Origin: Promicromonospora sp. AC04
Lineage (GTDB): Bacteria; Actinomycetota; Actinomycetes; Actinomycetales; Cellulomonadaceae
Length of the DNA: 64,000 nucleotides
Direction of reading: 5' to 3'
Assembly (NCBI RefSeq): GCF_003058225.1
Contig: NZ_QBUG01000011.1
Span: 1 to 64,000 of the forward strand
The position numbers and the translations under genes were made by a program. The notes under the pieces are model-generated. The model searched no databases and was not told the origin of the DNA. It worked only from the letters and a program-made list of their open reading frames with translations. This document shows positions 35,428-55,169 of this stretch, one piece after another (positions within the stretch are counted from its first letter, which is position 1; each line of letters opens with the position of its first letter).

Positions 35428-36279
35428 TCAGAGCCCCGGACGGATTCCCGGGACTCCCGTATCCAGACGTCGCTGGACGGACCTCAGCGTGCCAATGCGC
35501 GTCATGAACGGGACACAATCAAGCGCCTCAGCCTCGCACTCGCGACCGTGACCCGCTTTGAGTTCCTGACCTGGGACAACGCCCGGCGATGTGCCCCGAA
35601 TTCCCCTGGAACCGTGTCGCGTGTCGCGGGCGGTAATCGTCGAGTGGCGCTTGGTCATGGCGGAGGTTCGGTGCCGTAACGCCTTGTCCGCGGCGTCGGC
35701 AAGCACGACGATCGGCACGGCCGGCACCGCCATGACCCAGCCGGCCGGGGGCGGCGGGCTGCCGCCGAGTACGCCGGCCAGGGGCGGCGCAAGGAACACC
35801 CCGAGCAGGACCAGCTCGACCGCGACGGCGCCAAGTAGGAGCCGGTTGTCACCGACCGGCAGCGCGCCCGCCCAGCGACTCTCGCCGCGGCAGGCGAAGG
35901 CGTTGGCGAGCTGGCCCAGGACGACGGCGGCGAACGTCGCGCCCGACGCACCGGCGAGGACCGACACGGCGGGAGTGGCACCGAAGGTCCATCGGGCCAA
36001 ACCGAGCACGACCAGGAAGGCGGACATCGCCACGACGGCCTCGGCCGGGCCGAGGACGCCGAACGCCCGGCGCAGCACGGCACGGTCGATCAGGGCGCCG
36101 GTCGACGGTCGGCGCCGCATCGTCGTCCCGCGCGGCGGCTCCGCGCCCAGGGCGAGGGCGGGCAGCAGGTCGGTGCCGATGTCCAGGGCGAGGATCTGCA
36201 GCACGGTCAGGGCCAGGGGCACGGAACCGCCGCTGAGCACTGCCCGGCGCCGGCCCGGCCGGGCAGGGCCGAGGGTCAC
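35428..36279 (-). pseudogene. C-terminal fragment of a P-type cation ATPase
   Basis: The frame encodes the membrane C-terminus of a CtpF/calcium-type P-ATPase: LSGGSVPLALTVLQILALDIGTDLLPALALGAE is recognisable (positions about 36140-36240), followed by three or four more hydrophobic segments. The phosphorylation (DKTGT) and nucleotide domains are absent, and an in-frame TGA lies just before the apparent start. The last 70 residues look like read-through rather than protein. I call it a decayed remnant. CtpF belongs to the DosR regulon in Mycobacterium, matching the genes that follow. Confidence 0.75.
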
Positions 36280-36308: not shown

Positions 36309-36322
36309 GGGACCTTGGCCCC
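36309..36322 (+). promoter_or_regulatory. DosR-box-like sequence before the PIG-L-like gene
   Basis: GGGACCTTGGCCCC fits the DosR/DevR consensus (GGGACT-WW-AGTCCC and its known GGCCC variants): a GGGAC half, a two-base AT centre and a GG-CCCC half. It lies 78 bases before the PIG-L-like start. Confidence 0.55.
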
Positions 36323-36399
36323 TCCTCGTCCCTCGCTCGCGGGCACGAGGCTGGGAGAGGTACCGAGATCGTCTCGGTCCGCGCGTCCAAGGAGCGGTC

Positions 36400-37053
36400 A
36401 TGAGAGCCACTGTCGTCATCGACGTCGCCCCGGCACCGGAGCGAGCCCCGGCCGAGAAGCGGCTGCCACCTCCTCAGGTCCGGCGCCTGCTGGTGGTGTG
36501 CTCGACCCCCTTCGACGTGACCTTCGCCCTCGGTGGCGTCATCGCCGCCTTCGCGGCGGCAGGCACCGCAGTCCAGATCGTGTGCCTGACCCACGGCCGG
36601 CGGCCCGATCCCGGAACCCGACGCCGGCTCGACCGCGCGACGGAGCTGCTCCAGGCCGCGCGCCTGCTGGGGGCCCAGGAGGCGACCCTGCTCGACCATC
36701 GCGCCGGACACCTGCACACGAACCCACCGGAGACGCTCGCCTCCGAGCTGCGGTCCGTGGCCGGCCCGGTCGACGCGGTGCTGACCGTCGACGCCGGCGC
36801 ACCCGGCGCCCACCCGGACCACGTCCAGGCCATGCGGGCGGCCCAGCACGCCGCCGCGACCCTGCACTGCCCCTTGTACGGCTGGACGCGACCGTCCGTC
36901 GCCGCCGGCGCGACCAGCGGGACGATCGCCGTGGACAGCGACCGGGTACGGCAGCAGGCAGCCATCGCGTGCCACGGCACGCCGGCCGCGGACGATCCGG
37001 TCCACGCCCTCGTGGACCTCGGTCAGCCGCGGGACTACCTCACCCTGCTCTAG
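36400..37053 (+). CDS. PIG-L-like protein with degenerate metal site
   Basis: A 217-residue protein with the PIG-L/LmbE fold. The family's PHPDDE metal motif is replaced by STPFDVTFALGG (about residues 35-46), while the second motif HPDHVQAMRAA (about 138) is kept. PIG-L enzymes are zinc deacetylases of N-acetylglucosaminyl lipids or mycothiol precursors; loss of the first motif's His and acidic pair suggests a non-catalytic or altered protein. The ATG follows AAGGAG. It stands behind a DosR-like box, and its neighbours are dormancy-type genes and fragments. Confidence 0.7.
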   Translation: MRATVVIDVAPAPERAPAEKRLPPPQVRRLLVVCSTPFDVTFALGGVIAAFAAAGTAVQIVCLTHGRRPDPGTRRRLDRATELLQAARLLGAQEATLLDHRAGHLHTNPPETLASELRSVAGPVDAVLTVDAGAPGAHPDHVQAMRAAQHAAATLHCPLYGWTRPSVAAGATSGTIAVDSDRVRQQAAIACHGTPAADDPVHALVDLGQPRDYLTLL

Positions 37054-37117
37054 CAGCTCCCGTCGTCCCCGAGCTGGGGCCGTCCGGCCCAGGCCCGAAG
37101 GACCGGGGCACGGCGCG

Positions 37118-37462
37118 GTGGTCAACATCAGCTCGATCTTCGGCACCAGCGGCGGGATGGGCACGTCGCCGGCCTACCACGCGGCGAAGGGCGCGGTCCG
37201 CACGCTCACCAAGAACGTGGCGCTGGCCTGGGCGACGGCCGGGGTCCGGGTCAACTCGATCCACCCGGGGATCATCGACACGCCGATCCTCGACGTCGCC
37301 AGAGGCACCGAGTTCGAGACGGCCATGATCGACCTGACGCCGATGAGGCGGCTCCGCCCGCCGGAGGAGGTCGCGGCCGCGGTGGCCTATCTCGCGAGCG
37401 ACGACGCGTCCTTCGTCACCGGCGCCGAGCTCTACGTTGACGGTGGCTACATCGCCCGCTGA
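37118..37462 (+). pseudogene. C-terminal half of a short-chain dehydrogenase
   Basis: The 114 codons match an SDR from just before the catalytic serine onward: VVNISSIFGT, YHAAKGAVRTLTKN with the Tyr-Lys pair, HPGIIDTPIL and FVTGAELYVDGGY. The whole N-terminal Rossmann half with the glycine motif is missing. The reading frame continues upstream without a start or homology. It therefore cannot bind cofactor on its own and is a truncated relic. Confidence 0.8.
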
Positions 37463-37487
37463 GCCCAGCCCGATACGCCCTTCCTGA

Positions 37488-37557
37488 CGGACGTAGGTCC
37501 CTCCGATCCCTCCCAGCGTCGCTCGAACGCCGGGACGAGGCCAGGGACTTCCGTACC
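37488..37557 (+). promoter_or_regulatory. Two DosR-box-like sequences before the universal stress gene
   Basis: Box 1 (37488-37501) reads GGGACCTACGTCCG on the reverse strand. Box 2 (37544-37557) reads GGGACTTCCGTACC on the forward strand. Both keep the GGGAC half and a GT-CC right half. They lie 55 bases apart and end about 120 bases before the gene at 37677. Paired boxes are common at strongly DosR-controlled promoters in Mycobacterium. Confidence 0.6.
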
Positions 37558-37676
37558 CCGGGGCGCGGGCCTTTCGGCAGATCACCCAGGTCCTCCCGCC
37601 CTGTCGTCCGCTCAGGGCGCCGTGGTCCGCTGGGATCGCGGGCTGTCCTCAGGCCCGCGGAGCGAGGGAGACCATC

Positions 37677-38537
37677 ATGCGCAGCCAGTGGTACGACGGC
37701 ATCGTCGTCGGGGTCGACGGATCCGCCGAGAGCATGGCCGCCGTCGACTGGGCGGCGCTCACGGCGGACCGGCACTCGGCGCGGCTCACCGTGCTGGGCG
37801 CCTACGCCACCGTGCCGTCGAGCAGGTACGGGGTCGTGGGGATCGACGGCACGGACCTGGCAGCGGACGCGCGCGACGCCGTCGAGCAGGCCGTCGCCCG
37901 GCTCGACGGCGCGCGGCCCGGCGGATATCAGGTCGACCAGCGAGTCGTGCTGGGCGATCCCGTGGACATGCTGGCGCGAAGATCGACGTCGAGCGACCTC
38001 GTCGTAGTCGGCAGGCGCGGTCTCGCTGCCCGGGGGCGCACCGTGCTCGGCTCTGTGTCCGGCGCGCTCGCGGCGTCGGCGCACGGCCCGGTGGCCGTGG
38101 TCCCCGCCGGCGCCCGCGCCGGCGACCCACGCCGTGTGGTGGTCGGCGTGAGCCGCGGCAACGCCGACCCTCAGCTCGACGTCGCGTTCGCGGAGGCGCA
38201 GCAGCGGTCGTGCCCGCTCGAGGTCGTGCACGTCCTGAAACCCGACCCGCTCATGGACGTCGACCTCACCGGGCCGGAACCACAGCAGGGCACCGCCGAG
38301 CGCGAGGGTGTTCAGCATCAGGTGGCGCGGTGGTCCGGGAAGTACCCCGCCGTCGCCGCCACGGTCAGATTCCGCACCGCGAACCCGGTCGAAGCGCTCC
38401 TGGACGACGTCGGCCCGGAGGATCTCGTGGTCGTGGGCGGGCAGCCGCACTCACCGGTGGTCGGACGCATCCGGTACTCGATCTCGGACGGAGTGCTCCG
38501 CCGGTCGCCCGCCACGGTGATCGTGGTGCACGAGTAG
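37677..38537 (+). CDS. Tandem-domain universal stress protein
   Basis: A 286-residue protein made of two UspA domains. The first has GIVVGVDGSAES at the N-terminus and a full ATP-binding loop, VVGRRGLAARGRTVLGSVSG (about 117-136). The second begins RRVVVGVSRGN (about 154) and ends with a less conserved loop, GGQPHSPVVGRIRYSISDG. Such ATP-binding Usp proteins slow growth under hypoxia or stress in mycobacteria. GAGGGAG at 37664-37670 precedes the ATG. Two DosR-like boxes lie upstream. Confidence 0.93.
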   Translation: MRSQWYDGIVVGVDGSAESMAAVDWAALTADRHSARLTVLGAYATVPSSRYGVVGIDGTDLAADARDAVEQAVARLDGARPGGYQVDQRVVLGDPVDMLARRSTSSDLVVVGRRGLAARGRTVLGSVSGALAASAHGPVAVVPAGARAGDPRRVVVGVSRGNADPQLDVAFAEAQQRSCPLEVVHVLKPDPLMDVDLTGPEPQQGTAEREGVQHQVARWSGKYPAVAATVRFRTANPVEALLDDVGPEDLVVVGGQPHSPVVGRIRYSISDGVLRRSPATVIVVHE

Positions 38538-38575
38538 TACCTCTCGCCTGCCGACGCCGGTCGGACCGGACGGCG

Positions 38576-38644
38576 TCACGCGTCGTCGAGCGGTACGCAC
38601 CACTCCAGGCGGGTGCCGCTGGCCCTCCCCGGTCCGACCGAGAA
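38576..38644 (-). pseudogene. Remnant of a DevS/DosT-like histidine kinase C-terminus
   Basis: A short reverse-strand stretch reads VGPGRASGTRLEWCVPLDDA then stop, matching the last residues of DevS-type kinases, which end in a GGTRLEW-VPL strand. A TGA lies immediately upstream in the same frame and no other kinase sequence remains. The call depends on about 20 residues, so it is suggestive only. Confidence 0.4.
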
Positions 38645-38698
38645 TCACTACTCGTTCGCTCATGGCTCGAGTCTCGAAGCCCCGCCGCCCGGTCCGTA

Positions 38699-38712
38699 GG
38701 GGCGCAAGTCCC
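38699..38712 (-). promoter_or_regulatory. DosR-box-like sequence before the nitroreductase relic
   Basis: Read on the reverse strand the site is GGGACTTGCGCCCC: a perfect GGGACT half and a G-CCC right half. It lies about 55 bases before the surviving nitroreductase sequence, where the original promoter might have been had the gene been shortened from its 5' side. Confidence 0.45.
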
Positions 38713-38767
38713 GCGAGTCCGGGGCAAAGATCGCCGATCGCGCAGGCCACCCGGCGGCCCGCGCGGA

Positions 38768-39082
38768 CTGGCCAGCGCGGGCAGCGCGCTGTTCGAACAC
38801 CACTCGACCCTGGCCGTCCTCACCACCACCGGTGACGCCCCGCGCGACTGGGTCGCGGCGGGCGAGGCGCTGGAGCACGTGCTGCTGGTCGCCACGACGT
38901 ACTTCGTCCACGCGTCGTTCGCGACCACGGTGCTGGAGAACCCGACCACCCGGCACGACCTGCGCCGGGCCCTGTCGCTGGACGGGGCACCGCAGATGCT
39001 CATGCGGCTGGGGTACAGCTCGATGCCGAAGCACACGCCCCGCAGGTCCACACCACTGGTGACCTCGCCCGACGGCGAGTAG
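38768..39082 (+). pseudogene. C-terminal fragment of an Acg-like nitroreductase
   Basis: The 104 codons read STLAVLTTTGDAPRDWVAAG, then EALEHVLLVATTYFVHASF and PQMLMRLGY, a pattern of the C-terminal half of the Acg/Rv2032-type FMN-binding nitroreductase family. The N-terminal half is absent and no start codon with a ribosome-binding site precedes it. Acg is a core DosR-regulon protein in Mycobacterium. Confidence 0.6.
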
Positions 39083-39133
39083 CTGCCGGTGACGAGCGCG
39101 AGACACCCCCGAGGCGGACGCCGGGACCCGCCG

Positions 39134-39886
39134 CTAGGAGCCCTCTGTCGGCGCCGCCCCGGTACCGGAGGCCCGGCCCTCGGCGCAGACCTTGATCCCG
39201 AACAGCATGCGTCGCGACATCAGGTAGCTGACCTCACCGACCGGCGCCGTCAGGCGCCCCACGAGCTGGTTGCGGAAGGCGACACGCTCGCGCAGGAGCA
39301 GACGGGTGCGTCCATCCTTGGTCTCCCGGAGCGCGATGGTCCAGAGAAACTCCCAGCCGGCGGGGTCTTCGCGGCGGGCGGGCCGCCCGGCCTCCAGGTC
39401 GGCGAGCTGCAGCACGAGCGCCTCGCCGGGCTCGAGGCCCATGACGTACCACCCGCCGCCGCGGTCCCGGGTCGCGCGCACGACATCGCCGACCCGCAGC
39501 TCCTGCCACTCCGGCACGATCCTCTGAGCGTTACGGACCTTCAGGCCGAACAGGTTCTCCAGCCAGGTGTAGCTGTAGAACCCTCCCCGGTCCGCGCCGA
39601 TCTGCACCACCCACGGCCACACGTCCTGCGGTGGCGCATCGATCGTGATCGCTCGGGTGACCTGTGTCGCCGGCTCCGGAACGAGGTCGTCACCGGGCAG
39701 CATCGCCGCGACGTCCTCGTCGGTCGCCCCCCAGCGGTCGTGACCCGGCTTGACCCATCGCACGTACGCGACCGCGCCCGCCAGCCCTGTCAGGGCCGCC
39801 ACGAGCGGGCCGCGACGCCACGCCGGCCGCCCCGACCTCGTTCGGCCGGTGTACCCGCTGGTCCTGTGCTCGCTGCTCCGTGCCAT
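39134..39886 (-). CDS. SRPBCC-family membrane-anchored protein (copy 1)
   Basis: A 250-residue protein with one N-terminal transmembrane helix (about residues 28-46) and a START-like SRPBCC domain (about 75-235). Visible landmarks: [41 protein letters not shown] in pieces, and the C-terminal [11 protein letters not shown]. Relatives bind lipids or other hydrophobic ligands; no function is known. Two further copies occur nearby, one intact (44537) and one with an internal deletion (43510). The start at 39886 has no clear ribosome-binding site. A DosR-like box lies in the divergent gap upstream. Confidence 0.8.
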
Positions 39887-39922
39887 GCGCCGAGCCTCGC
39901 ATCCGCGTGGCACTCCTCGACA

Positions 39923-39936
39923 GGGCCAGAAGTCAC
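39923..39936 (-). promoter_or_regulatory. DosR-box-like sequence between SRPBCC and DUF4389 genes
   Basis: On the reverse strand the site reads GTGACTTCTGGCCC, with one mismatch in the GGGACT half and a GGCCC right half. It lies 37 bases before the leftward SRPBCC gene and 60 bases before the rightward DUF4389 gene. Confidence 0.4.
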
Positions 39937-39995
39937 CGGCATATAGGGGCCAACGCCTCATGCGGCGTCCGGCACGAACGGGTGAGGCTCGACCT

Positions 39996-40322
39996 ATGAG
40001 TGACGAACCCTACCCACTGCGCGTGGATGCCGCCCTCGACAGCGGCCTGAACAGGTGGCTCTGGCTCGTCAAGTGGCTGCTGGCCATCCCGCACTACGTC
40101 GTCCTGGCGTTCCTCTGGACCGCCTTCGGTGTCCTGACGGTGTTCGCGTTCTTCGCGATCCTGTTTACCGGCCGCTACCCGCGGCCTGTGTTCGACTTCA
40201 ACGTCGGCGTGCTGCGCTGGACCTGGCGAGTCTCGTTCTACGCGTACTCCGCCGCGGGCACCGACCGGTACCCGCCGTTCTCCACGCCGCAGCAAGCCGA
40301 GGGCCTGGTCGAACGAGGCTGA
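39996..40322 (+). CDS. DUF4389 small membrane protein
   Basis: A 108-residue protein with one long hydrophobic hairpin (about residues 24-58). The YPLRVDAALDSGLNRWLWLVKWLLAIPHYVVL opening (in pieces) and FNVGVLRWTWRVSFYAYSA are the DUF4389 signature. Many relatives carry two such units; this one has a single unit and a short tail. Function is unknown. GGTGAGG stands a few bases before the ATG at 39996. It sits in the dormancy-type cluster. Confidence 0.8.
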   Translation: MSDEPYPLRVDAALDSGLNRWLWLVKWLLAIPHYVVLAFLWTAFGVLTVFAFFAILFTGRYPRPVFDFNVGVLRWTWRVSFYAYSAAGTDRYPPFSTPQQAEGLVERG

Positions 40323-40411
40323 TGTCGGTGTAGCACAGCCCGCTGGACTCGATCTGGCCCGGCCCGGTCGTAGACGCGGTGAACGTCTCACACCGCGGCC
40401 ACGCGCACGAA

Positions 40412-40693
40412 TCACGGGTGCAGGTGAACTGGACCGTGCTCGATCTCCGCTATGTCGTCCGACGTCGCCCGCAGCAGCCGGTCGGCCAGCTCACGCAGTG
40501 CCCGGGCCGCGGCGAGCTCTTCACCGATCTCGGGGACCTCCGGGTCGCTCGGGTTGCGACGGGCGCGCCCGTGGCCCTCAAGCGAGGTGCCGCTGGACGT
40601 GGTCAGCACGGCGTGGGCGGCGGTCAGCGTGCCGTCACGCTCAATGTCGTCGGCGTCGAAGAGCTGGATTGTGACGTTCCACGTGTGAGTCAT
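40412..40693 (-). CDS. DUF1876 protein (Rv1738/Rv2632c-like)
   Basis: A 93-residue protein matching DUF1876: WNVTIQLFDADD at the N-terminus, the short GHGRARRNPSDPEVPEIGEE turn, and AARALRELADRLL before a short tail. Mycobacterial Rv1738, a DosR-induced relative, has a fold like ribosome hibernation factors, so a role in slowing translation is plausible. AGGAG lies eight bases before the ATG. A DosR-like box stands 90 bases upstream. Confidence 0.85.
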   Translation of the reverse strand: MTHTWNVTIQLFDADDIERDGTLTAAHAVLTTSSGTSLEGHGRARRNPSDPEVPEIGEELAAARALRELADRLLRATSDDIAEIEHGPVHLHP

Positions 40694-40782
40694 GGCGGTG
40701 CTCCTGTCGATCGGTCCTCTCCCCCGCGGGTTCCGGTAGAGAGCGTGACTTTCAGCGTCCGCTCCTGAGGGCCGCCGCACCA

Positions 40783-40796
40783 GGGACCAAGGCCCC
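40783..40796 (+). promoter_or_regulatory. DosR-box-like sequence between DUF1876 and SDR genes
   Basis: GGGACCAAGGCCCC has the same layout as the site at 36309 (GGGACC, two A/T bases, GGCCCC) and is nearly palindromic. It lies 90 bases before the leftward DUF1876 gene and 107 before the rightward SDR gene. Confidence 0.55.
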
Positions 40797-40902
40797 GGCA
40801 CCTCAGGACGGACGGCACATGGCCCGGCCCGCTCCCGCTGCCTAGCGTGAAATTGCCCGGCATCGTGCCGAGCGCCAACCTACACAGGGCACGGAGGACA
40901 TC

Positions 40903-41673
40903 ATGCGCACCATCGTCGTCACCGGCTCCGCCTCCGGAATCGGTCTGGCCACCCTGCGGCTCCTGGAGCAGCGCGGGGATCGCGTCATCGGCGTGGACCT
41001 CCACGACGCGGAGATTGAAGCCGACCTGTCCACCCCGAGTGGTCGAGAGGAGATGGTGGACCGGGTGCGGTCGCGTCGCCGCTACGTCGACGGCGTCGTC
41101 GCCAACGCCGGCGTGGCCCACCAGACCCCGCGCGATGTCGCGGTGAACTTCTTCGGCACCGTGGCCACCCTGGACGGGCTGCAGCCCTTGCTGGCCGGCT
41201 CGCAGGCGCCGCGCGCGGTGGCTACCGCCTCCATGGCCAGCCTCCTGCCGTCCGACGCCGAACTGGTCGACCTCTGCTTGGCCGGTGACGAACCCGCCGC
41301 CCTGGACCGCGTGACCAAGCTCGTAGAGGCAGACCAGGCGGGCCTGATCTACGCCAGCAGCAAGGTTGCACTATGCCGCTGGATCCGCCGGGAAGCCACT
41401 GGACCCCGGTGGGCGGACGCGGGAATCCCTCTCAATGCCATCGCACCGGGCATCGTCGAGACGCCGATGGTGGCGGGCATGATCGGGACCAAGGTCCAGC
41501 GTGCAGCGATCTCCGCGATGGTGCCGATGCCTCTGAACGGCTTCATGCAACCAGAGGTCCCCGCCCACCTCCTGGCCTGGCTGGTCGGCGAGAAGAACTC
41601 CCACGTCTGCGGCCAGGTCATCTTCGTCGACGGCGGTTCCGACGCGATGATCCGCGGCGACTCCACTTGGTGA
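40903..41673 (+). CDS. Short-chain dehydrogenase (3-alpha-hydroxysteroid dehydrogenase-like)
   Basis: A 256-residue SDR of the divergent hydroxysteroid/hydroxybutyrate type. TGSASGIGLATL (7-18) is the cofactor motif, GVDLHDAEIEADLS the acidic NAD-selecting strand, VANAGV the next motif, and YASSKVALCRWIRR the Tyr-Lys pair (about 149-153). The catalytic Ser is in ATASMASLL. GGAG precedes the ATG. It retains every element that the relic at 37118 has lost. The substrate is not known; it may be cofactor cycling within the dormancy-type cluster. Confidence 0.87.
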   Translation: MRTIVVTGSASGIGLATLRLLEQRGDRVIGVDLHDAEIEADLSTPSGREEMVDRVRSRRRYVDGVVANAGVAHQTPRDVAVNFFGTVATLDGLQPLLAGSQAPRAVATASMASLLPSDAELVDLCLAGDEPAALDRVTKLVEADQAGLIYASSKVALCRWIRREATGPRWADAGIPLNAIAPGIVETPMVAGMIGTKVQRAAISAMVPMPLNGFMQPEVPAHLLAWLVGEKNSHVCGQVIFVDGGSDAMIRGDSTW

Positions 41674-41876
41674 ACCACACGGATCGCTGAGGCCATCACG
41701 TGCACGGCCCCCGGCTGCGGCCCGTTCGGCCCGCGGACAAGCCTCGCCGCGCAACTACCGCAGCTCCTGATTCCGGGACAGCCGCGGCCTAGAATCGGGA
41801 TCACGAGCGGTTCACGACGTTGAGCGCCGACTCCTCCACCGGCGTCAGTCGAGCCGCCATGACGGAGGGGACTGCC

Positions 41877-42929
41877 ATGAAGGCTGTTGTGTACCACGGA
41901 CCCGGCCAGAAGTCCTGGGAGGACGTCCCGGACCCGGCACTGCGGGACCCGCCGGACGCGGTCGTCAAAGTCGACACCACCACGATCTGCGGCACCGACC
42001 TGCACATCCTCAAGGGCGACGTGCCCGCGGTCACCGACGGCCGGATCCTCGGCCACGAGGGCGTCGGGGTCGTGACCGAGGTGGGCGACGCCTGTACCAA
42101 GGTCAAGGTCGGCGACCGCGTGATCATCTCCTGCATCAGCAAGTGCATGAACTGCGACTACTGCAGGCGGGGCCTGACCTCGCACTGCGAGACCCTGGGC
42201 GGCATCGGCTGGATCTTCGGCCACCTCATCGACGGCACCCAGGCCGAGTACGTCCGCGTGCCGTTCGCCGACAACGGGCTCATCCCGCTGCCCGAAGGCG
42301 TCACCGCCGAGCAGGGCGCGATGCTCTCCGACATCCTGCCGACCGGGTTCGAGATCGGCGTGCAGTACGGAGAGGTCAAGGACGGTGACATCGTCGCCGT
42401 CGTGGGGGTCGGGCCGGTCGGCCTCGCGGCCGTCATGACCGCTCGCTCCAGCGGCGCCGCGAAAGTGATCGCCGTCGACGGCAACCCGTTCCGCCTCATG
42501 GCCGCCCGCGACTTCGGGGCCACGGACACCGTGGAGGCCGGCCCCGACGCGCTCGACCAGCTCAAGGCCTTCGGCCCAGGCGGGAAGGGTGTCGACGTAG
42601 CGATCGAGGCCGTCGGCATCCCCGCGACCTTCGCTCTCTGTCTCGACGCCATCCGTCCCGGCGGGCGGGTCGCCAACGTCGGCGTGCACGGCAAGCCGGT
42701 GACCCTCCCCATCGACCGGGACTGGATCAACAACATCACGATCACGACGGGGCTCGTGAACGCCACGACCGCGCCGCGGCTGCTCGAGGACATCCAGGCC
42801 GGGCGGATCGCGCCGGAGAAGTTCGTGACTCACCGGTTCACGTTCGACCAGTGGGACCAGGCCTACGACACCTTCTCCCGCGCCGCGGACGAGGAGGCGC
42901 TGAAGGTTGTCGTCTCGAGCGAGGACTGA
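41877..42929 (+). CDS. Zinc-dependent alcohol dehydrogenase
   Basis: A 350-residue medium-chain dehydrogenase. The catalytic zinc Cys is in TTICGTDLHILKG (about 37) with GHEGVGVV (His/Glu) following; the structural-zinc region KCMNCDYCRRGLTSHCE (about 92-108) has its four Cys; GVGPVGLAAV (about 178) binds NAD. The overall pattern resembles the iditol/threonine dehydrogenase-like ADH group seen in hypoxia-responsive actinobacterial clusters. GGAGGGG stands before the ATG at 41877; an upstream start at 41820 has no support. Substrate unknown. Confidence 0.92.
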   Translation: MKAVVYHGPGQKSWEDVPDPALRDPPDAVVKVDTTTICGTDLHILKGDVPAVTDGRILGHEGVGVVTEVGDACTKVKVGDRVIISCISKCMNCDYCRRGLTSHCETLGGIGWIFGHLIDGTQAEYVRVPFADNGLIPLPEGVTAEQGAMLSDILPTGFEIGVQYGEVKDGDIVAVVGVGPVGLAAVMTARSSGAAKVIAVDGNPFRLMAARDFGATDTVEAGPDALDQLKAFGPGGKGVDVAIEAVGIPATFALCLDAIRPGGRVANVGVHGKPVTLPIDRDWINNITITTGLVNATTAPRLLEDIQAGRIAPEKFVTHRFTFDQWDQAYDTFSRAADEEALKVVVSSED

Positions 42930-42985
42930 ACCCGGTCCGGGCGGCGGGAACGGCGTGAAAAGGTCTGCATCGGAAGGGATACGTG

Positions 42986-43513
42986 ATGACTGCGATCGTG
43001 CTCTATGAATCGATGTTCGGGAACACCCGCCAGATCGCTCAGGCGATCGGCGACGGCCTCTCGGACTTCACCGATGTCCGCGTGGAACCGGCGTCGGCGG
43101 GGCCCGATCTGGCGGTCGACCTGGTGGTGATCGGTGCGCCCACCCACGCGCACACCCTGCCACAGGCGTCTTCTCGGGAGGAGGCGGCGAAGTGGGCGGC
43201 TGATCCGGAACAGCATCTGGACCTCGAGCCCGACGCGTCCAAGTCCGGGGTGCGGGAGTGGATCGAGTCTCTCTCGACCGCGCCGGCCGGTTGGGTCGCC
43301 TTCGGCACACGCGTGGACATCCCACGCATCTTCGCCGGCGATGCGTCGGCGGGGATCGAGCGGCGGATCCGCCGCCTCCATTCACGTCCGGTTGCCGACT
43401 CCGAGTGCTTCCTCGTGACCACGAAGAACGTACTCGTGGACGGCGAGCTCGACAGGGCTCGCGAGTGGGGCCGCTCGCTCGGCCAGGCCGTGATCAAGCG
43501 ACAGACGACATGA
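42986..43513 (+). CDS. Flavodoxin-domain protein
   Basis: A 175-residue flavodoxin-like protein. The FMN phosphate loop is YESMFGNTRQIAQAI (about 8-22) and the second FMN loop lies near GAPTHAHTLPQ (about 49). It is likely an FMN-binding electron carrier. GGAAGGGA precedes the ATG; an overlapping GTG at 42983 is possible. Its stop overlaps the ATG of the deleted SRPBCC gene (ATGA), so the two were once one transcription unit. Confidence 0.88.
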   Translation: MTAIVLYESMFGNTRQIAQAIGDGLSDFTDVRVEPASAGPDLAVDLVVIGAPTHAHTLPQASSREEAAKWAADPEQHLDLEPDASKSGVREWIESLSTAPAGWVAFGTRVDIPRIFAGDASAGIERRIRRLHSRPVADSECFLVTTKNVLVDGELDRAREWGRSLGQAVIKRQTT

Positions 43514-43688
43514 CTGCGGGACAGTGGTCGGCGCTCGGCACTGTCGCTGGGGCGGCTGCGATCGCAGCCACGTGGGCCGTTCGGCCGCGCTCGCCGAGCC
43601 TGTCGAGATGGTGAGCTTCTTCATGTCGAAGCGAATGCTCCGCGGCATCCGGGAGCGCGCCGAGCGCCCGACGCCGGCCGGGGTCTGA
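43510..43688 (+). pseudogene. SRPBCC gene with internal deletion (copy 2)
   Basis: From the ATG at 43510 the frame encodes MTAGQWSALGTVAGAAAI, a short N-terminal hydrophobic anchor like those of the two intact SRPBCC copies, and stops at codon 35. From about 43595 a different frame reads MVSFFMSKRMLRGIRERAE and ends at 43688, matching the family C-terminus (compare [10 protein letters not shown] and MSRGMLRGLRRRA). The whole central domain is gone and the ends are joined out of frame. This is direct evidence of a deletion of roughly 500 bases. Confidence 0.75.
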
Positions 43689-43695
43689 GCGAGCC

Positions 43696-44379
43696 ATGCG
43701 CGCACCGGCCGAGCCATCCGGGGCGGACCAGCGCCGGTTGGAGCGATGGGATCGGGGCCGGTGGATCTTGGCGGTCTCGGCCGGCGAGGGAGTCGGCTTC
43801 GCGATCGCCACCACCGTGGCGGTCCTCACGATCGTCGGCGGGATCGTTGGTCCGGGCCAGCTGGCGCTCGTGATAGTCGGCGGCGCATTCGAGGGCGCGG
43901 CACTCGCGCTCGGGCAGTACCTCGGCATGCGCGAGGGGCGCCCGGTCGCGTGGCGGTGGATTGCCGCTACCGCGCTTGCAGCCGCGATCGCCTGGGCACT
44001 CGGGATGCTGCCCAGCACCGTTGGCCTCGACCTCGGCTCACCCGTGGCGCTGATCATGACAGGGGTCGGCGGGATCGCACTCCTGGCGAGCATCCCGGTC
44101 GCACAGTGGCTCGTGCTCGCTCGGCCACGTACGTTCCGGTGGGTTCCGGTGAACGCTGGTGCATGGGCGGTCTCGATCCTCTGGACATTCGCCCCGTCGC
44201 CGTTCATCGACGAACGCAGCCCGATTCCGTTGGTCGCGGCCCTCTATGTCGTGGCCGGGATCCTGATGGCCGTCACCTTCGCGTCCCTGACCGCCGGCGT
44301 CGCCCGGACCATGTTCTTTCCCAGACGTGACGGGCCAGGTCAGCCCTCCGGCGCGCGAGGCTCGACAGCGCGCCCCTGA
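43696..44379 (+). CDS. Unknown six-helix membrane protein
   Basis: A 227-residue protein with about six hydrophobic segments (roughly residues 33-55, 58-80, 92-112, 120-140, 150-168 and 180-205). The first 20 residues are charged and cytosolic, and the tail is Gly/Pro/Arg-rich. I do not recognise the family. It lies seven bases after the deleted SRPBCC gene and before an intact one, suggesting an SRPBCC-linked membrane unit. Confidence 0.65.
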   Translation: MRAPAEPSGADQRRLERWDRGRWILAVSAGEGVGFAIATTVAVLTIVGGIVGPGQLALVIVGGAFEGAALALGQYLGMREGRPVAWRWIAATALAAAIAWALGMLPSTVGLDLGSPVALIMTGVGGIALLASIPVAQWLVLARPRTFRWVPVNAGAWAVSILWTFAPSPFIDERSPIPLVAALYVVAGILMAVTFASLTAGVARTMFFPRRDGPGQPSGARGSTARP

Positions 44380-44536
44380 CCCTCCGTGGCCGCAATTCGC
44401 ACCCACCGAACCTTTCTCCAGGGCCCACGGTGTGACGCCCAACCGTTCGGTTGCGGCGACCTCGCCACGGCGGTTTGCTACGGAGATGAGCTCCGAGGGT
44501 TCTGGATCGCGACCTGGAAGAAGCGAGGATCGGCGC

Positions 44537-45199
44537 ATGTCAGCACATCGCTCCCGCACGATGGCGCTCGTCATGTCGCTGGTGGCCGGCTATCTGGCGC
44601 TGCAGTGGCTCGGTCGCACGTACGGGTCGACCGCGGCGGAGCGCAGGGCGATGATGCCCGGCGACGAACTCGTGCAACATCCTCAGGTCGGCGCCACGCA
44701 TGCGGCCAGCGTTCCTGCGGCGCCCCACAGCATCTGGCCGTGGTTGGTGCAGGTTGGGTGGCATCGTGGCGGCTGGTACACACCACGATGGGTCGACCTG
44801 CTCCTGTTCCCTGACAACTGGCTGAGCGCCCAGCGAATCCTCGACAGCTACCAGACCCTCGAAGTCGGTGATTTCGTCCCAGACGGCGCGCCGGAGACCG
44901 AGTGCGGGTTCGTGGTCCGTGAGGTCGAGCCAGGTCGGCGGCTGCTCCTCGAGTCGACCACGCACCTGCCCCTCGCATGGCGACAGCGCAGACTGGCACA
45001 GCTGCACTGGACCTGGAGCTTCCAGCTCACGCCGGTCGACGACGGACGCGCCACTCGGTTGATGTTCCGGTGGCGCGCCCGAACACACCCCTGGTGGCTC
45101 ACGGCCGGCGCGAACCTCGTGATCATCCCCGCCGACTTCGTGATGTCTCGCGGCATGCTCCGCGGGTTGCGCCGCCGCGCCACTTCGATGGCGCGATGA
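44537..45199 (+). CDS. SRPBCC-family membrane-anchored protein (copy 3)
   Basis: A 220-residue paralogue of the gene at 39134. It has an N-terminal helix (about 8-26), MMPGDELV, APHSIWPWLVQVGWHRGGWY, a START-like domain and the C-terminal FVMSRGMLRGLRRRA. The ligand is unknown. The ATG at 44537 is chosen because it directly precedes the hydrophobic anchor; an in-frame extension to 44327 has no protein-like character. The 157-base gap upstream holds no feature I can name. Confidence 0.78.
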   Translation: MSAHRSRTMALVMSLVAGYLALQWLGRTYGSTAAERRAMMPGDELVQHPQVGATHAASVPAAPHSIWPWLVQVGWHRGGWYTPRWVDLLLFPDNWLSAQRILDSYQTLEVGDFVPDGAPETECGFVVREVEPGRRLLLESTTHLPLAWRQRRLAQLHWTWSFQLTPVDDGRATRLMFRWRARTHPWWLTAGANLVIIPADFVMSRGMLRGLRRRATSMAR

Positions 45200-45269
45200 G
45201 CCTCCGTACGCCTGGCTCATGACGGCGCAGGTGCAGCGGTGCATCCGCAAGCGGGCGAGCGCGCACCCG

Positions 45270-46547
45270 TCACGCGCTGAGGCGCGCCAGCTCTTCGCTC
45301 ATGGTGCGCGCGAAGACGTCACCGGGCACATTCGCCGCGTCGAAGTGGACGCTGCAGGAGAGCCGACCGGCATACGAGACCGCCGCGACGCCCAGCCGGA
45401 CGTTCGCGGCGAGAACCGCAACCGGCCAGATCGCCACGACGGGAGCGCCCGCGAGGCGGAGTATGCCCGCCGGACCCGGCACGTTGGTGACGAACCCGCC
45501 GACGAGGTGCTGCCGCCGCGCGATGCGGTCCATGATCCGCGCCCCGACCGGGCCGCGCATGAGCTCGAGCGTGCCCTGCTCCCGCGCCTGGACCTTCTCC
45601 GCTCGGGTCTGCTCCGCGATCAGCCGAAGGCGATCGTCGGGGGCCGACACGTCGAGTGGCAGCCGCACGAGCATCACCCCGACCTGGTTGGCCGATGTGC
45701 CGTGGCGCCGCAGCGCGACCGGCACCGACACGGGCAGACGTGCAGGGACCTGCTCACCGGCTGCTGGCAGCGTCGCCCGGTAGCCTGAAGCGACCGACGC
45801 GAGCAGCGCGTCATTTACGGTCGCGCCGAACGGTCGCACACGCGCCTCGAGCGCTGCGAGGTCCACGTCCACGAAGGCGACGCCGCGGCGCGGACTGCGC
45901 TCGCCGAGCAGCACCGTGGACCCCACCTCACGACCGGTGAGCGCCTTCCGGATGCGGCGCAGAGCGTAGCCGAGCATCCGGAAGAACCGCCGCAGGTCGC
46001 GTGGACCCGGTTCCACGCTCGGCCCGGACTGTGAAGCCGCAAGCCTCCACGCGAAGGTCGGTCCAGGCTCCGAGGCATCGAAAAGCTGCTGCGCGATCGC
46101 CACCGCGGCCATTCCATCCGCAACCGCGTGGTGGATGCGGAGCACGACCCCGATCTGTCCGGGACCGACGCCGGGCACGACCAAGATCTCCCAGAGCGGA
46201 CGGTCGAGTCGTAGTGGCACCCCCATCAGCTCACCGCACAGCCGTTCGAGGCCCCTGAGGCCATCCACGGTCGCGGTCAGCCGAATGTGGTGTTCGAGGT
46301 CCGGCGACATCTCCTGCCAGCTATGCCCGCGACCGGTGGCGACGGGGACCTTGCGGAGCGGTGGCAGCTCGGTGATTCGCTTGCCGAGCGCGGAACGCAG
46401 CGTCGCAAGGTCAGCGGTGCCGTCGGGACTGATGAACCCGCCCTGGGAGAGAAGGCCGGCGACGAGGAAGACGTTGACCTGGCCGGCGTGGTCGAGCACA
46501 AGGTTCGCCTCGTCGACCGCGGCGAGCCGTTGTGTCGCCGGGCGCAT
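45270..46547 (-). CDS. Wax ester synthase/diacylglycerol acyltransferase (WS/DGAT)
   Basis: A 425-residue acyltransferase. The catalytic HHxxxDG motif is IHHAVADGMAA (about 138-148), and the C-terminal NVPGPAGILRLAGAPV block is characteristic. These enzymes make triacylglycerol or wax esters from acyl-CoA at the membrane; Tgs1 of the DosR regulon is the mycobacterial counterpart. It converges on the SRPBCC gene. No ribosome-binding site or clear DosR box is seen before the ATG. Confidence 0.92.
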   Translation of the reverse strand: MRPATQRLAAVDEANLVLDHAGQVNVFLVAGLLSQGGFISPDGTADLATLRSALGKRITELPPLRKVPVATGRGHSWQEMSPDLEHHIRLTATVDGLRGLERLCGELMGVPLRLDRPLWEILVVPGVGPGQIGVVLRIHHAVADGMAAVAIAQQLFDASEPGPTFAWRLAASQSGPSVEPGPRDLRRFFRMLGYALRRIRKALTGREVGSTVLLGERSPRRGVAFVDVDLAALEARVRPFGATVNDALLASVASGYRATLPAAGEQVPARLPVSVPVALRRHGTSANQVGVMLVRLPLDVSAPDDRLRLIAEQTRAEKVQAREQGTLELMRGPVGARIMDRIARRQHLVGGFVTNVPGPAGILRLAGAPVVAIWPVAVLAANVRLGVAAVSYAGRLSCSVHFDAANVPGDVFARTMSEELARLSA

Positions 46548-47671: not shown

Positions 47672-48412
47672 TCATGAGATGAGTGCGTAGCGCGTCTCCA
47701 GGTACTCGTAGATGCCCTCGAACGAGCCCTCGCGGCCGAGACCCGACTGCTTGACTCCGCCGAACGGCGCGGCAGCATCGGACACGAGGCCGGTGTTGAT
47801 GCCGAGCATGCCCGTGTCCAGGGCCTTCATGAGGCGATGGGCCCGGTCTAGGTCGCGTGTGTAGGCATAGGCGACCAGGCCGTACTCGGTGTCGTTGGCC
47901 GCCCGGACTGCATCCTGTTCCGATGCGACCGTGGTGACGGCGAGTACGGGGGCGAAGATCTCCTCGCGGGACAGGCGGGCATCGGCCGGCACATCCGCCA
48001 GGACCGTCGGCAGGAAGAAGGTGCCAGGTCCCTCAACCCGTGATCCGCCCGTCAGCAGCCGAGCCCCGCGATCGATCGCATCCGTGACGAGTTCTGCCGT
48101 TCTCAGCACGGCGCGCTCGTCGATGAGCGGCCCGATACGCGACTCCGGGTCCGTGCCGGGTCCGACGGTGAGCGAACGCACCCGTTCGACGACCTGGGCC
48201 GTGAGGTCGTCGGCCACGTCCTCATGGACGATGAAGCGGTTCGCGGCCGTGCACGCCTGACCCATGTTGCGGAACTTGGCGAGCATGGCGCCGTCGACTG
48301 CCGCGTCGAGGTCGGCGTCGTCGAAGACGAGAAACGGGGCGTTTCCGCCGAGCTCCATCGAGGTGCGCAGCACCGTGTCGGCTGCCTGCGCGAGCAGGCG
48401 GCGCCCGATCGC
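47672..48412 (-). pseudogene. C-terminal half of a succinate-semialdehyde dehydrogenase (fragment B)
   Basis: The frame begins within an aldehyde dehydrogenase at IGRRLLAQAADTVLR and runs to a normal end at SGLGREGSFEGIYEYLE, including SMELGGNAPFLVFDDADLD (catalytic Glu) and MGQACTAANRF (catalytic Cys). The N-terminal cofactor domain, about 230 residues, is absent. Its 5' end abuts fragment A in a different frame. A GTG at 48373 could start a truncated product, but it would lack cofactor binding. Confidence 0.75.
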
Positions 48413-49190
48413 AGCAACGCCGTCGCGCCCTGCTGGACGGCGCGCTCGATCTGGGCATCGAGGCGGTCGGCTGCCGCGGCGGACGAGAGCGGACCCAGCT
48501 CGGTGGCCTCGTCGAGAGGGCTGCCGACGGTGACGGCGGCCAGCTTGCTCGTGATCCGTGCCGCGAACTCGTCGTAGAGGTCGTCGATCACGATGAAGCG
48601 CTTGGCGGCGTTGCAGGACTGCCCGTTGTTGTCCAGGCGGGCCGCGACGGCATCGGCGACCGCGGCGTCGAGGTCGTCGGTCGAGAGCAGGATGAACGGG
48701 TCCGAGCCGCCGAGCTCCAGGACGACCTTCTTGAGGTGGCGCCCCGCCAGCTCGGCCACGGCCGACCCGGCGCGCTCCGAGCCGGTGACCGAGACGCCCT
48801 GGATCCGGGAGTCACCGACCACCTGCGCGATCTGCTCGTTCGTGGCGTAGATGTTGCGGTAGATGCCGGCCGGGGCGGCGGACTCGGCGGCCGCCAGGTC
48901 GAAGATCTCCGCGATCGCCGCAGCCGACTCGGGGCATTGCGGGGCGTGCTTGAGCACGATCGTGTTGCCCGCAACGATGTTCGGTCCCGCGAACCGCGCG
49001 ACCTGGTAATAGGGAAAGTTCCAGGGCATGACGCCAAGCAGTACGCCGATGCCGGCCTTGCGGATCACGGCGGTCCCGGTGCCCGTGGAGAGCTCGATGG
49101 GTTCGTCGGCCAGGAGACCCGCGGCGTGGTCGGCGTAGTACTCGTAGATCTCGGCCGCGAAGTCCACCTCGCCGAGCGCTTGTCCAAGCG
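48405..49190 (-). pseudogene. Middle part of a second aldehyde dehydrogenase (fragment A)
   Basis: A different succinate-semialdehyde dehydrogenase-like frame covers LGQALGEVDFAAEIYEYYAD through MPWNFPYYQVARFAGPN, VSVTGSERAG, VLELGGSDPFILLSTDDLD and NNGQSCNAAKRF to QQGATALLR. It lacks about the first 90 and last 140 residues. Both edges are sharp junctions: into a response regulator at about 49190 and into fragment B at about 48405-48412. It is not an allele of fragment B, because both contain the homologous ELGG and catalytic-Cys regions. Confidence 0.75.
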
Positions 49191-52476: not shown

Positions 52477-52590
52477 GCTCAAGGAGGAGCTCCATGAAGA
52501 CACCGATTGGCTCAGTGCCCGGCACGCAAGTGCGCGGGTAGTTCGAGCCCCTCGCGCCCCGTACGAACTACTGGGGTCGCAACATCTCCC
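52477..52590 (+). pseudogene. Decayed partial duplicate of the esterase 5' end
   Basis: About 114 bases, including the ribosome-binding site, copy the start of the next gene. GCTCAAGGAGGAGCTC occurs identically at 52477-52492 and 52795-52810. The ATG at 52494 opens MKTPIGSVPGTQVRG and then hits TAG; beyond it FEPLAPRTNYWGRN still parallels IESLAPQVNYWGRD of the intact gene. The two copies differ by many substitutions and one three-base indel, so the duplication is not recent. Between the copies, 52591-52794, I see nothing definite. Confidence 0.75.
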
Positions 52591-52811
52591 GAACGGACGG
52601 AAGCGGCCGCAGCCCGCTCACCCAGCGACCTCGGCACGGACCCTGTCGATCGCATGGCAAAAGGGTTCGCGTCACTCACGTGCTGCCTGGTCAACGGCCA
52701 GCTGGAACGACCGCAGGCTCCGCAGCCATGCCCAAAGTGCCCACGAAGGGGTGGTTCGCTCGTGCCCGATGCCGGGCAACGCTGCTGGCCAAAAGCTCAA
52801 GGAGGAGCTCT

Positions 52812-53792
52812 ATGACGACAACATCGATTGGCCCGGTGCCAAGCGCGCAGGTGCGCAGGTACATCGAGTCCCTCGCACCCCAGGTGAACTACTGGGGTCG
52901 CGACCTCTCCGCGCTGCGGAAGCAGGTCCGCGAGCACGCACTGGCATTTCAGGGTCCGCTGGAACAGGTGGCCTCGGTGGAGACGGTCGACGCCGGAGGG
53001 GTTCCCTCGAGGCTCTACCGACCGCGCGGCAACGAAGAGGACGTTCTGGTCTGGATCCATGGCGGCGGCTGGATGCTCGGCGACCTGGACAGTTGCGAAG
53101 GCATCGCGCGAGCACTCGCGAACCGTGCCGGATGCGCCGTCCTCGCGATCGACTACAGGCTCGCACCCGAGCACCCGTTTCCGGCGGCATTCGACGACAC
53201 ATGGAGCGCGATCGACTGGGCCCGACGGAACTTTTCCAGGGTCGCGGTTGGGGGCGACAGCGCCGGTGGCAATCTCGCGGCAGCAGCCGCCCTCAGAGCG
53301 AGAGACTCTCAGGTCGATCTGGCGCTGCAACTACTGGTGTACCCGGTACTGGACAGCACCATGGACACCACGGCCAAGCGGCGATTCGTCGAGTCGTATT
53401 CGAACTTCGCAGGGTGGGGCGACTACGGCAGAACCACGCATGAACGGATCGGGTACTTGTGGGGCGCATACGTTCCTGACGAGCTGATGCGGCGATCCCC
53501 CGCAGTCTCGCCATCGCGCGCCAAGACGTTGTCGAGCGTTTCACCGGCGATCATCATCACCGCCGAGCACGACATTCTTCGTGGGGAAGCCATCGAGTAT
53601 GCCAGCCGGCTGCGCCGGGATCAGGTTCCCGTCGAGCTCCACGACTACGCCGGTCAGATCCACGGATTCTTCGAGAAGCTCGGTGTCATGGCAGACGCGA
53701 TAGACGCCGTGAACAAGACCGGCACGGCATTACGGCGAGCATTCACCAACCACGGAACGGCGTTGCGTACGCCGTCCGAGAACCACTCCTGA
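52812..53792 (+). CDS. Alpha/beta hydrolase (hormone-sensitive-lipase family esterase)
   Basis: A 326-residue esterase. The oxyanion-hole HGGGW (about 77-81), nucleophile elbow GDSAGGN (about 145-151), acid Asp in TAEHDILRG (about 252) and His in QIHGFFE (about 284) are all present, so the HSL triad is complete. AAGGAGGAG precedes the ATG. It is the first gene of an operon with an ABC sugar importer and a TetR regulator, so it may remove acyl groups from an imported glycoside; that is inference. Confidence 0.9.
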   Translation: MTTTSIGPVPSAQVRRYIESLAPQVNYWGRDLSALRKQVREHALAFQGPLEQVASVETVDAGGVPSRLYRPRGNEEDVLVWIHGGGWMLGDLDSCEGIARALANRAGCAVLAIDYRLAPEHPFPAAFDDTWSAIDWARRNFSRVAVGGDSAGGNLAAAAALRARDSQVDLALQLLVYPVLDSTMDTTAKRRFVESYSNFAGWGDYGRTTHERIGYLWGAYVPDELMRRSPAVSPSRAKTLSSVSPAIIITAEHDILRGEAIEYASRLRRDQVPVELHDYAGQIHGFFEKLGVMADAIDAVNKTGTALRRAFTNHGTALRTPSENHS

Positions 53793-53801
53793 GGAGACAT
53801 C

Positions 53802-55169
53802 ATGCGTACCAGCAAGACTCCGTCCCGGCCAAGCAGGCGAACGAGCTATCGGATCGCGCTGCCAGCAATCCTTGCTGCCCTGCTGGCATCCTGTGGTGCC
53901 CCGGGCGCACAGAGCCCCCTTTCCGACACGCCAGAAACCGTGAGCACGAGCATCGGTGATGCGCCGGTCACCCTCAAGGTGCTTGTGTCAACACCCGATG
54001 TACCGCTCTACGAGGAGCTCGGCGCCGCCTTCCAGACCAAGCATCCCAATGTCACCGTGCAGGTGACCGGCGAAGACTTCAACAACCTGACGACGAACGT
54101 ACCTCGCCTGATATCCGGCACCGAGGTGCCCGACCTGGTCCGGCTCGCATCCTTCGGAAACCTGGTCAAGGACCACCTCCTCACCAATCTCGATCCGTAC
54201 GCCGAAGCGTACGGATGGACCGAGTGGCCGCAGTCCCAGTTCGCATCCACTCGCGTCGCTGATGACGGACGGCAGCGTGGCACCGGGCACTTGTACGGCG
54301 CCGGGCCAGGATTCGGGCTGACGGGCGTGTACTACAACAAGTCGCTCGCGGCTCAGATCGGAATGACTGAGCCGCCGGCCACGCTCAGCGCCTTTGAAAG
54401 CAGCCTGGAAAAGGCGAAGAACGCTGGTCTCCTGCCGATCATGGTCAACGGCAAGGACGGAGGACTGGCGTATCCGCTCCAGAACCTCCAGATGAACTAT
54501 GCGGGCAGCACCCAGGTGGTCCAGGACTGGAACTACAACAAGCAGGGCGCCTCCATCGACACGTCCGCACTGGTAGACGCCGCCGCGACGCTCAAGGGCT
54601 GGAGCGAGGACGGATATCTGCCGGAGGACGTGAACAGCATCGATCAGACACAGGCTCCCGCCAGGTTCGCCGAAGGCGAGGGTGTCTTCTTCCCGAGCGG
54701 GAACTGGCAGGCACCAACCCTTCAGGGCGCAGGCAAGGATGAGTTCGGGTTCTTCCTCTTCCCGCCCGAGGAGGTCGGCGACCCATTCACCGCGATGACC
54801 GCCGCCGGCGTCCTGGCCATTCCCGCCAAGTCCGAGCAACGCGATGCGGCGGCCGCATTCCTGAACTTCATCCAGACGGATACCGACGCCCGCCAAAGCA
54901 CCCTGGACCTTCTCGGCCTCCCACCCGCCGGGCCCTCCGACGCGCCCATGCCGGACTCCGAGCCCGGATCCCTGGTCGCCAGCACCGTCGAGTCCTTTCA
55001 GGCGCTGCTGGACAGCGACGGCCTCGTCGACTTCATGTCGAACTCGACCGCGTCGATGCACGCGAACACACTGGTCCCGCAGACGCAGCTTCTCGTGGGT
55101 GGGAAGACGACCCCCGCTGAGTTCTCCACAGCCATCCAGGACGGCTACGAGAATGACGCAGAGCAATAG
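53802..55169 (+). CDS. ABC sugar-importer substrate-binding lipoprotein
   Basis: A 455-residue family 1 solute-binding protein. The signal peptide ends LLASC with lipidated Cys31. The mature chain shows the fold's EELGAAFQTKHPNVTVQVTG opening, GVYYNKSLAAQIG (about 175) and FPSGNWQ (about 290). Such proteins bring oligosaccharides or similar polyols to MalFG-type permeases. GAGGAGA lies five bases before the ATG, and the gene begins nine bases after the esterase. The ligand is unknown. Confidence 0.92.
   Translation: MRTSKTPSRPSRRTSYRIALPAILAALLASCGAPGAQSPLSDTPETVSTSIGDAPVTLKVLVSTPDVPLYEELGAAFQTKHPNVTVQVTGEDFNNLTTNVPRLISGTEVPDLVRLASFGNLVKDHLLTNLDPYAEAYGWTEWPQSQFASTRVADDGRQRGTGHLYGAGPGFGLTGVYYNKSLAAQIGMTEPPATLSAFESSLEKAKNAGLLPIMVNGKDGGLAYPLQNLQMNYAGSTQVVQDWNYNKQGASIDTSALVDAAATLKGWSEDGYLPEDVNSIDQTQAPARFAEGEGVFFPSGNWQAPTLQGAGKDEFGFFLFPPEEVGDPFTAMTAAGVLAIPAKSEQRDAAAAFLNFIQTDTDARQSTLDLLGLPPAGPSDAPMPDSEPGSLVASTVESFQALLDSDGLVDFMSNSTASMHANTLVPQTQLLVGGKTTPAEFSTAIQDGYENDAEQ

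Follow-up and report, generated by a model that had tools for sequence, protein, structure and literature searches.

Positions 1 to 64,000 of contig NZ_QBUG01000011.1 from Promicromonospora sp. AC04 (hereafter the window) contain, between 35.6 and 41.7 kb, a group of genes and gene relics that has probably become detached from a DosR-type hypoxia/redox regulon and survives as a partly decayed satellite of it. The putative regulator pair, dosR and dosS, lies on another contig (C4) of the same genome. This assignment is drawn from sequence comparison of the genome under study (G000) with the other genomes of its genus (G001–G012; 13 genus genomes in all), where gene borders were set by a simple script and homology; the borders of the C4 and C2 genes in G000 were set by homology. 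Systems of this kind are already known from mycobacteria and streptomycetes, and what we describe is one that is broken up and partly decayed. A sequence-only reading of the window had drawn a single hypoxia-dormancy island from 36309 to 46547, with six DosR-type boxes. Its left half fits a DosR-type gene set, whereas its right half lacks a box and differs in substitution history.

The window has no DosR of its own. The intact dosR and dosS that the DosR interpretation calls for elsewhere in the genome are found on C4, and they are DevR-, DosT- and DevS-like by their best matches. There, a small gene that we call doxX (a name of our own for a gene without a Pfam family) precedes dosR; dosS comes next, on the opposite strand, with a tandem universal stress protein (Usp) gene divergent from it. 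The best solved relative of the dosR product (C4:16312-16956) is DevR (3c3w, 1.5e-80). The GAF domain of DosS is closest to those of DosT (1.6e-47) and DevS (2.6e-45), with their ATPase domains matched as well; the protein has the Pfam domains GAF, HisKA_3 and HATPase_c, keeps the motif HHPPM and is 87% identical to its counterpart in G006. A DosR orthologue of at least 88% identity occurs in 11 of the 13 genus genomes, being missing in G003 and G012, and in a sample of 121 genomes of the family, 51 have a DosR match at 1e-75. Searches of plasmids gave best identities, among the matches listed, of 71% for DosR and 59% for the alcohol dehydrogenase (ADH) of the window. A DosR of 91% identity is encoded at G063:C42:777187-777819, in another genus (g14) whose other listed members reach 64-71%; this identity suggests a possible transfer between genera.

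Perfect copies of a palindromic box, GGGACCWWGGTCCC, adjoin dosR and dosS on C4. The exact box occurs in 17 places in the 13 genomes, as compared with 6 for a reversed-pattern control. Fourteen of the 17 lie at dosR cores and one at a pfl/usp locus on contig C2 of G000, and the other two are at G004:C88:796 and G009:C1:615415. None is found in the DosR-less genomes G003 and G012; G005 has DosR and no exact box, its dosR box carrying one mismatch. Across 20 sites at dosR-core and usp promoters, taken from nine genomes, the box is accompanied by a second element, GGGSCC, about 22 bases from the box start, and by CTCTGCC at about 33. Judged against 20,000 random background segments, the second element is present in G000 at three promoters, those of the C4 dosR operon and of the usp genes on C4 and C2 (p at most 0.0002), and more weakly at the pyruvate phosphate dikinase (PPDK) gene on contig C8 (p 0.009). 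It is a feature of the core of this genus and not of the DosR family, and even at core sites it is not universal, being absent, for example, from the dosR operons of G001 and G011.

To score the boxes in the window we used a matrix built from 18 boxes that precede the dosR operon or lie between dosS and usp; they come from ten other genus genomes, and none is from G000. The sites were counted in both orientations and come from related genomes, and are therefore not independent. The background comprised 399,620 positions of G000 (20 stretches, 400 kb), with a top score of 12.7. Three of the six boxes proposed earlier, all on the forward strand, exceed every background position. The predicted box GGGACCTTGGCCCC (36309..36322; score 17.0) lies 77 bp before the start codon of the PIG-L gene and has one mismatch to the genus box; CGGACGTAGGTCCC (37488..37501; 14.0) lies 175 bp before the start codon of the tandem Usp gene; and GGGACCAAGGCCCC (40783..40796; 16.2) lies in the promoter region between the divergent DUF1876 and short-chain dehydrogenase (SDR) genes. 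The other three fall to background level: sites 37544, 38699 and 39923 score 2.7, 3.5 and -5.1, and 411, 313 and 5,451 background positions, respectively, score at least as high. A site at 41485 was rejected despite its score of 19.0 because it is internal to the second short-chain dehydrogenase gene (SDR2) and shows no conservation, being absent from the corresponding codons of G006, G008 and G011.

The mycobacterial DosR core palindrome, GGGACTWWAGTCCC, is related to the genus box, which differs from it in having C/G instead of T/A as the inner bases next to the AA/TT centre. A search of the window with this palindrome, allowing up to three mismatches, returned seven sites, six of them within 36309-41498; five of the six boxes proposed earlier are among the seven, the exception being 39923. 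The total is unremarkable, since the expectation for 64 kb is 3.55 sites and a count of seven is attained in 7 of 100 shuffles, and it is therefore the clustering that counts. The 4.7-kb core holds five such sites, as compared with six in the 400 kb of the 20 background stretches, so that site density is locally far above background.

Comparison between genomes supports the box at 40783, which is conserved in five of them (G000, G006, G007, G008 and G011). By eye, the block CAGGGACCAA-G-CCC at this position is the best conserved part of the five-genome intergenic alignment. Downstream of it, a candidate -10 element of the SDR gene, TAGCGT (40843..40848, forward strand), keeps its spacing across genomes; the hexamer lies 59-61 bases after the box start in all four of the genomes that have SDR2 on that side. 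The interval 36.2-46.7 kb gave no match when scanned for sigma-70 promoters and contains one terminator-like site. In G007 a relative of the PIG-L protein (59%) follows DUF1876, behind a box with two mismatches.

The genes next to these boxes are open. The PIG-L family deacetylase (36400..37053, forward; Pfam PIG-L, 2e-14) is followed by the tandem Usp (37677..38537, forward; two Pfam Usp stretches), which is 47-50% identical to the Usp proteins of the dosR island of G006. The DUF1876 protein (40412..40693, reverse; PF08962, 2e-29), a Rv1738/Rv2632c-like protein whose best solved match is Rv1738 (4wpy, 1.4e-11), is intact and 91% identical to that of G006, with a ratio of nonsynonymous to synonymous substitution (dN/dS) of 0.06. 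SDR2 (40903..41673, forward; assigned by Pfam), also intact, is 85% identical to its G006 counterpart with a dN/dS of 0.13, and adjoins the dosR operon in G006, G008, G011 and, in partial form at a contig end, G001. Between the boxed genes lie a DUF4389 protein (39996..40322, forward; Pfam 1.9e-13) and a protein labelled SRPBCC-type in the sequence-only reading (39134..39961, reverse), which is 45% identical to a G006 island protein and has no Pfam family.

Interspersed with these genes are relics. A CtpF-type cation P-type ATPase (35602..36237, reverse; Pfam Cation_ATPase_C) retains its C-terminal part, which corresponds at 71% identity to residues 687-891 of the CtpF frame (891 residues) in the G006 island. 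An Acg-type nitroreductase (38762..39052, forward) likewise retains residues 214-310 of 319, at 82% identity to the G006 island Acg, and an SDR (37118..37462, forward) retains its C-terminal half (positions 125-235 of 236 of the adh_short_C2 profile). The CtpF and Acg remnants proposed earlier are thus confirmed by comparison with G006, whereas the DevS relic proposed with them is barely detectable. A possible DosS C-terminal remnant at 38588..38620 (reverse) consists of an 11-residue match, SGTRLEWCVPL, with an E value of 0.028 in a 4-kb search, which is weak and at most suggestive, and we have dropped the DevS relic as a firm claim.

The same genes are gathered in one place in G006. Its dosR island (C6:391-422 kb, about 31 kb) contains homologues of most of them together with dosR, dosS, Usp genes, several boxes, a PFL-like glycyl radical enzyme gene and its radical-SAM partner; in G008 and G011, too, there is clustering close to dosR. 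The window shares with this island homologues of CtpF, Acg, DUF1876, SDR2, ADH, flavodoxin, a VIT-like membrane protein, an SRPBCC-type protein and a WS/DGAT acyltransferase. The G006 island is contiguous, but in G000 the set is spread over at least four loci, a count based on about 820 kb of G000 beyond the window: the dosR operon, dosS and usp on C4; C2:219829-235308, with relatives of radical-SAM, PFL-like, usp, GH65, flavodoxin, usp, ArsR and SulP genes; C8:80633-87268, where a boxed PPDK gene precedes relatives of Acg and CtpF that are unbroken; and the window. On C2 the PFL-like, radical-SAM and Usp genes surround a perfect box at 223147, where the second element points to usp (0 of 20,000 null segments as high) and not to pfl (p 0.43). 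CtpF and Acg are full-length in the G006 island and relics in the window; conversely, WS/DGAT is intact in the window and represented in the G006 island only by a C-terminal piece. PIG-L and DUF4389 were not found in the G006 island, matches under 38% not being listed. On C8, the Acg relative (C8:83575-84516) is unbroken and 71% identical to that of G006, and the CtpF relative (C8:84803-87268) has an open frame covering residues 32-853 of 891, with 89% identity. The window relic is therefore nearer than the C8 copy to the G006 island gene for Acg (82% versus 71%), whereas the C8 copy is nearer for CtpF (89% versus 71%); because these orders are opposite, recent duplication of the C8 genes does not by itself account for the window relics.

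We read the scatter, from these gene arrangements, as the probable break-up of a cluster, the alternative direction being a gathering of the genes in G006. A fuller account along these lines is offered tentatively, as something to which we give slightly less than even weight. A once-clustered DosR island would have been broken into at least four loci tied to one regulator by a genus-specific box, and the window would represent a stage of that break-up in which some targets (CtpF and Acg) are dead, their boxed neighbours are living and the promoters carry a single box, unlike those of the dosR core. If this account is true, the gene of a PFL-like glycyl radical enzyme at the C2 locus would have a perfect DosR box beside it. 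Among titles in the literature we found nothing on DosR with pyruvate formate lyase, nor on DevR with Pseudonocardia.

Several observations weigh against a living DosR satellite in the window. Each of the three supported boxes has one or two mismatches to the genus box, and the second element is absent at all three (p 0.24 to 0.90, both orientations), so that we reject a two-element promoter here. The boxes at 36309 and 37488 have no orthologous promoter with which their conservation could be compared. The low dN/dS values of DUF1876 and SDR2 are weak evidence of present function because those of the two relics compared with G006 are also low (0.20 and 0.29). Box-like sites are, in addition, no more frequent than chance across whole genomes. 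Within one mismatch of the genus box, G000 has 13 sites as compared with 9 for the reversed pattern, the 13 genomes together have 95 as compared with 112, and looser patterns likewise show no excess; a simple whole-genome density test was dropped for this reason in favour of local and positional tests. Finally, 420 kb of G000, made up of stretches chosen for pattern matches plus their neighbours, hold 13 sites scoring at least 13.9 beyond the four in the window. These include the two C4 dosR-core boxes, pfl/usp and PPDK, and the remaining nine are unexplained or inside genes. Among the nine are C9:20057 (17.3), C11:71003 (16.6) and C14:167976, all outside the one-mismatch list. Given these sites and that at 41485, a high score alone proves nothing.

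The most likely alternative is that the group was once controlled by DosR and is now a dead remnant, its boxes and genes decaying and control lost since detachment. The relics of CtpF, Acg and an SDR, the imperfect boxes without a second element and the existence of unbroken CtpF and Acg relatives on C8 all speak for such a remnant, and dN/dS does not separate living from dead genes in this group. However, the DUF1876, SDR2, PIG-L and Usp frames are open, and the box at 40783 deviates from a perfect palindrome in each of the five genomes compared, indicating that its imperfection is not decay in G000. We consider loss of control unlikely, although it deserves more weight than the remaining alternatives.

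The lack of a genome-wide excess of near-matches, the three claimed boxes that are at background level and the strong match at 41485, a coding coincidence, would fit box-like sequences arising by chance in GC-rich intergenic DNA beside common stress genes. Position, rather than number, is informative. Seven of the 13 one-mismatch sites in G000 are inside called genes, and the other six are all at genes of the kind considered here: the dosR operon, dosS/usp, pfl-like/usp, PPDK, PIG-L and DUF1876/SDR, the last two being the window sites 36309 and 40783. Together with the local cluster of five sites in 4.7 kb, the three scores above all background positions, the conservation of the box at 40783 and the grouping of homologous genes around dosR in G006, this makes coincidence very improbable.

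The window also encodes two LuxR-type response regulators (5551-6174 and 59861-60487) that are 43-44% identical to the DosR of G006; matches of 42-46% identity are present in most genus genomes. That one of these, or another LuxR/NarL-type regulator, acts through similar boxes is the least credible explanation: such regulators can share half-sites and the two in the window are related to DosR, but 43% relatives of DosR are also present in the two DosR-less genomes, which have no exact box, and most exact boxes are at dosR itself.

A satellite of the C4 regulator pair thus remains our preferred interpretation. The sequences show the genes for the regulators, the boxes with their excess in this region and the conservation of one box; the following scheme of signal, binding, activation and product roles is what we infer. 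The GAF-domain kinase DosS, presumably a heme protein, would sense low oxygen, nitric oxide or a redox change and phosphorylate DosR, which would then bind the palindrome. In the window, DosR would drive at least the divergent DUF1876/SDR promoter through the box at 40783, probably PIG-L through that at 36309 and possibly the tandem Usp through that at 37488. The products may help the cell to sit out oxygen shortage, DUF1876 by stabilising ribosomes and Usp by stress signalling. The role proposed for DUF1876 follows the discussion of Rv1738 as a putative ribosome hibernation factor in PMC9386245. As for the earlier proposal that boxes and gene families support each other, it holds for three of the six boxes, one of them conserved, and does not extend to the right half of the proposed island.

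That right half consists of an ADH–flavodoxin–VIT-like membrane protein–SRPBCC-type module (41820..45199, forward) and an intact WS/DGAT acyltransferase (45270..46547, reverse; Pfam WS_DGAT_cat and _C). Neither has a box: from 41.8 to 46.5 kb no matrix match reaches 7, the best being 6.9 at 44305. The ADH module has 90-93% DNA identity to G006:C6:391118-395124, and residues 308-424 of WS/DGAT are matched at G006:C6:421553-421973, at the far end of the dosR island. These two segments, which occupy opposite ends of the G006 island, touch in the window (45206/45209), and the DNA match to G006 breaks between 41676 and 41758. Synonymous divergence (dS) from G006 is 0.11-0.21 for ADH to WS/DGAT, as compared with 0.67-0.87 for DUF1876 and SDR2, or 0.57-0.87 when the two relics are included. 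For the backbone left of the island it is 0.14-0.40 (nine of ten genes tried were found), a range whose low end the right-half values overlap, and for DosR, DosS, CtpF and PFL on C4, C2 and C8 it is 0.35-0.59. Because of the dS values, the break in DNA match, the arrangement and the matrix scan, we regard the right half as a separate module without a credible box. Its occurrence beside dormancy genes in two genomes is suggestive of a link to the regulon; membership of the module, and control by DosR, are unproven.

The system resembles that of M. tuberculosis in its regulator and sensor families, as judged by best solved matches, and in gene content: the Usp, Rv1738-like, Acg-type, CtpF-type and WS/DGAT families all belong to the M. 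tuberculosis DosR regulon. Unlike that regulon, the part in the window has no regulators and is mixed with relics and a box-free module. A non-mycobacterial setting is not in itself surprising because a functional counterpart has been published: OsdKR (SCO0203/SCO0204) of Streptomyces coelicolor, a DosR-type regulator with its sensor kinase, is described in PMC5069765. In that paper, boxes are predicted in front of osdR itself and of genes for Usp, nitroreductase, PPDK and zinc dehydrogenase; a boxed PPDK gene is likewise found in G000, on C8. The OsdR box given there is AGGGCCGATCGGCCCT, as compared with GGGACCWWGGTCCC here, and the OsdR targets are clustered around the regulator, whereas those described here extend over at least four loci and include relics. 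Table 1 of PMC5069765 has no entry named DUF1876 or PIG-L, several of its entries being 'hypothetical protein'. The scattered layout, the genus box and the survival of a box beside dead genes might be the less expected parts of the present system. The DosR-type regulons would gain an actinobacterial genus that uses its own variant of the box and whose members have the regulator or lack it, with clustered as well as scattered arrangements. Such a set would allow one to ask, outside the mycobacteria and streptomycetes that have been studied, which of the dormancy targets remain linked to DosR as an island falls apart.

Between metH (end 35380) and about 46.5 kb, the open genes are PIG-L, tandem Usp, DUF4389, DUF1876, SDR, ADH, flavodoxin, WS/DGAT, a VIT-like membrane protein and two proteins labelled SRPBCC; the C-terminal remnants are those of the cation P-type ATPase, nitroreductase and SDR. 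Most of the families listed earlier are borne out by Pfam, namely PIG-L, tandem Usp, DUF4389, DUF1876 (now 'Rv2632c-like'), ADH, flavodoxin, WS/DGAT and the C-terminus of the cation P-type ATPase. The SRPBCC label, which has no Pfam match for either 39134-39961 or 44327-45199, comes from the sequence-only reading, and 'VIT-like' is our own label for a protein without a Pfam match.

The island lies in a variable region. On the upstream side of metH, the interval 5.8-34.8 kb is collinear with G006 over about two thirds of its length. Downstream of metH, we compared 20 kb from each of 11 congeners (6 kb for G012, with G004 left out) and found no match longer than 250 bases over 35571-49.6 kb, while blocks further downstream recur: 49.6-51.3 kb in G008, 52.5-55.0 kb and 103.7 kb in G005, 96.2 kb in G009 and G010 and, weakly, 86.1-86.6 kb in G006. 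The genes at 52477-55041 have a lower third-position GC content (0.76-0.81) and 74-89% DNA identity to the region downstream of metH in G005. At 47672-49167, an aldehyde dehydrogenase extends over two overlapping frames (profile positions 231-459 and 92-338) and is probably frameshifted.

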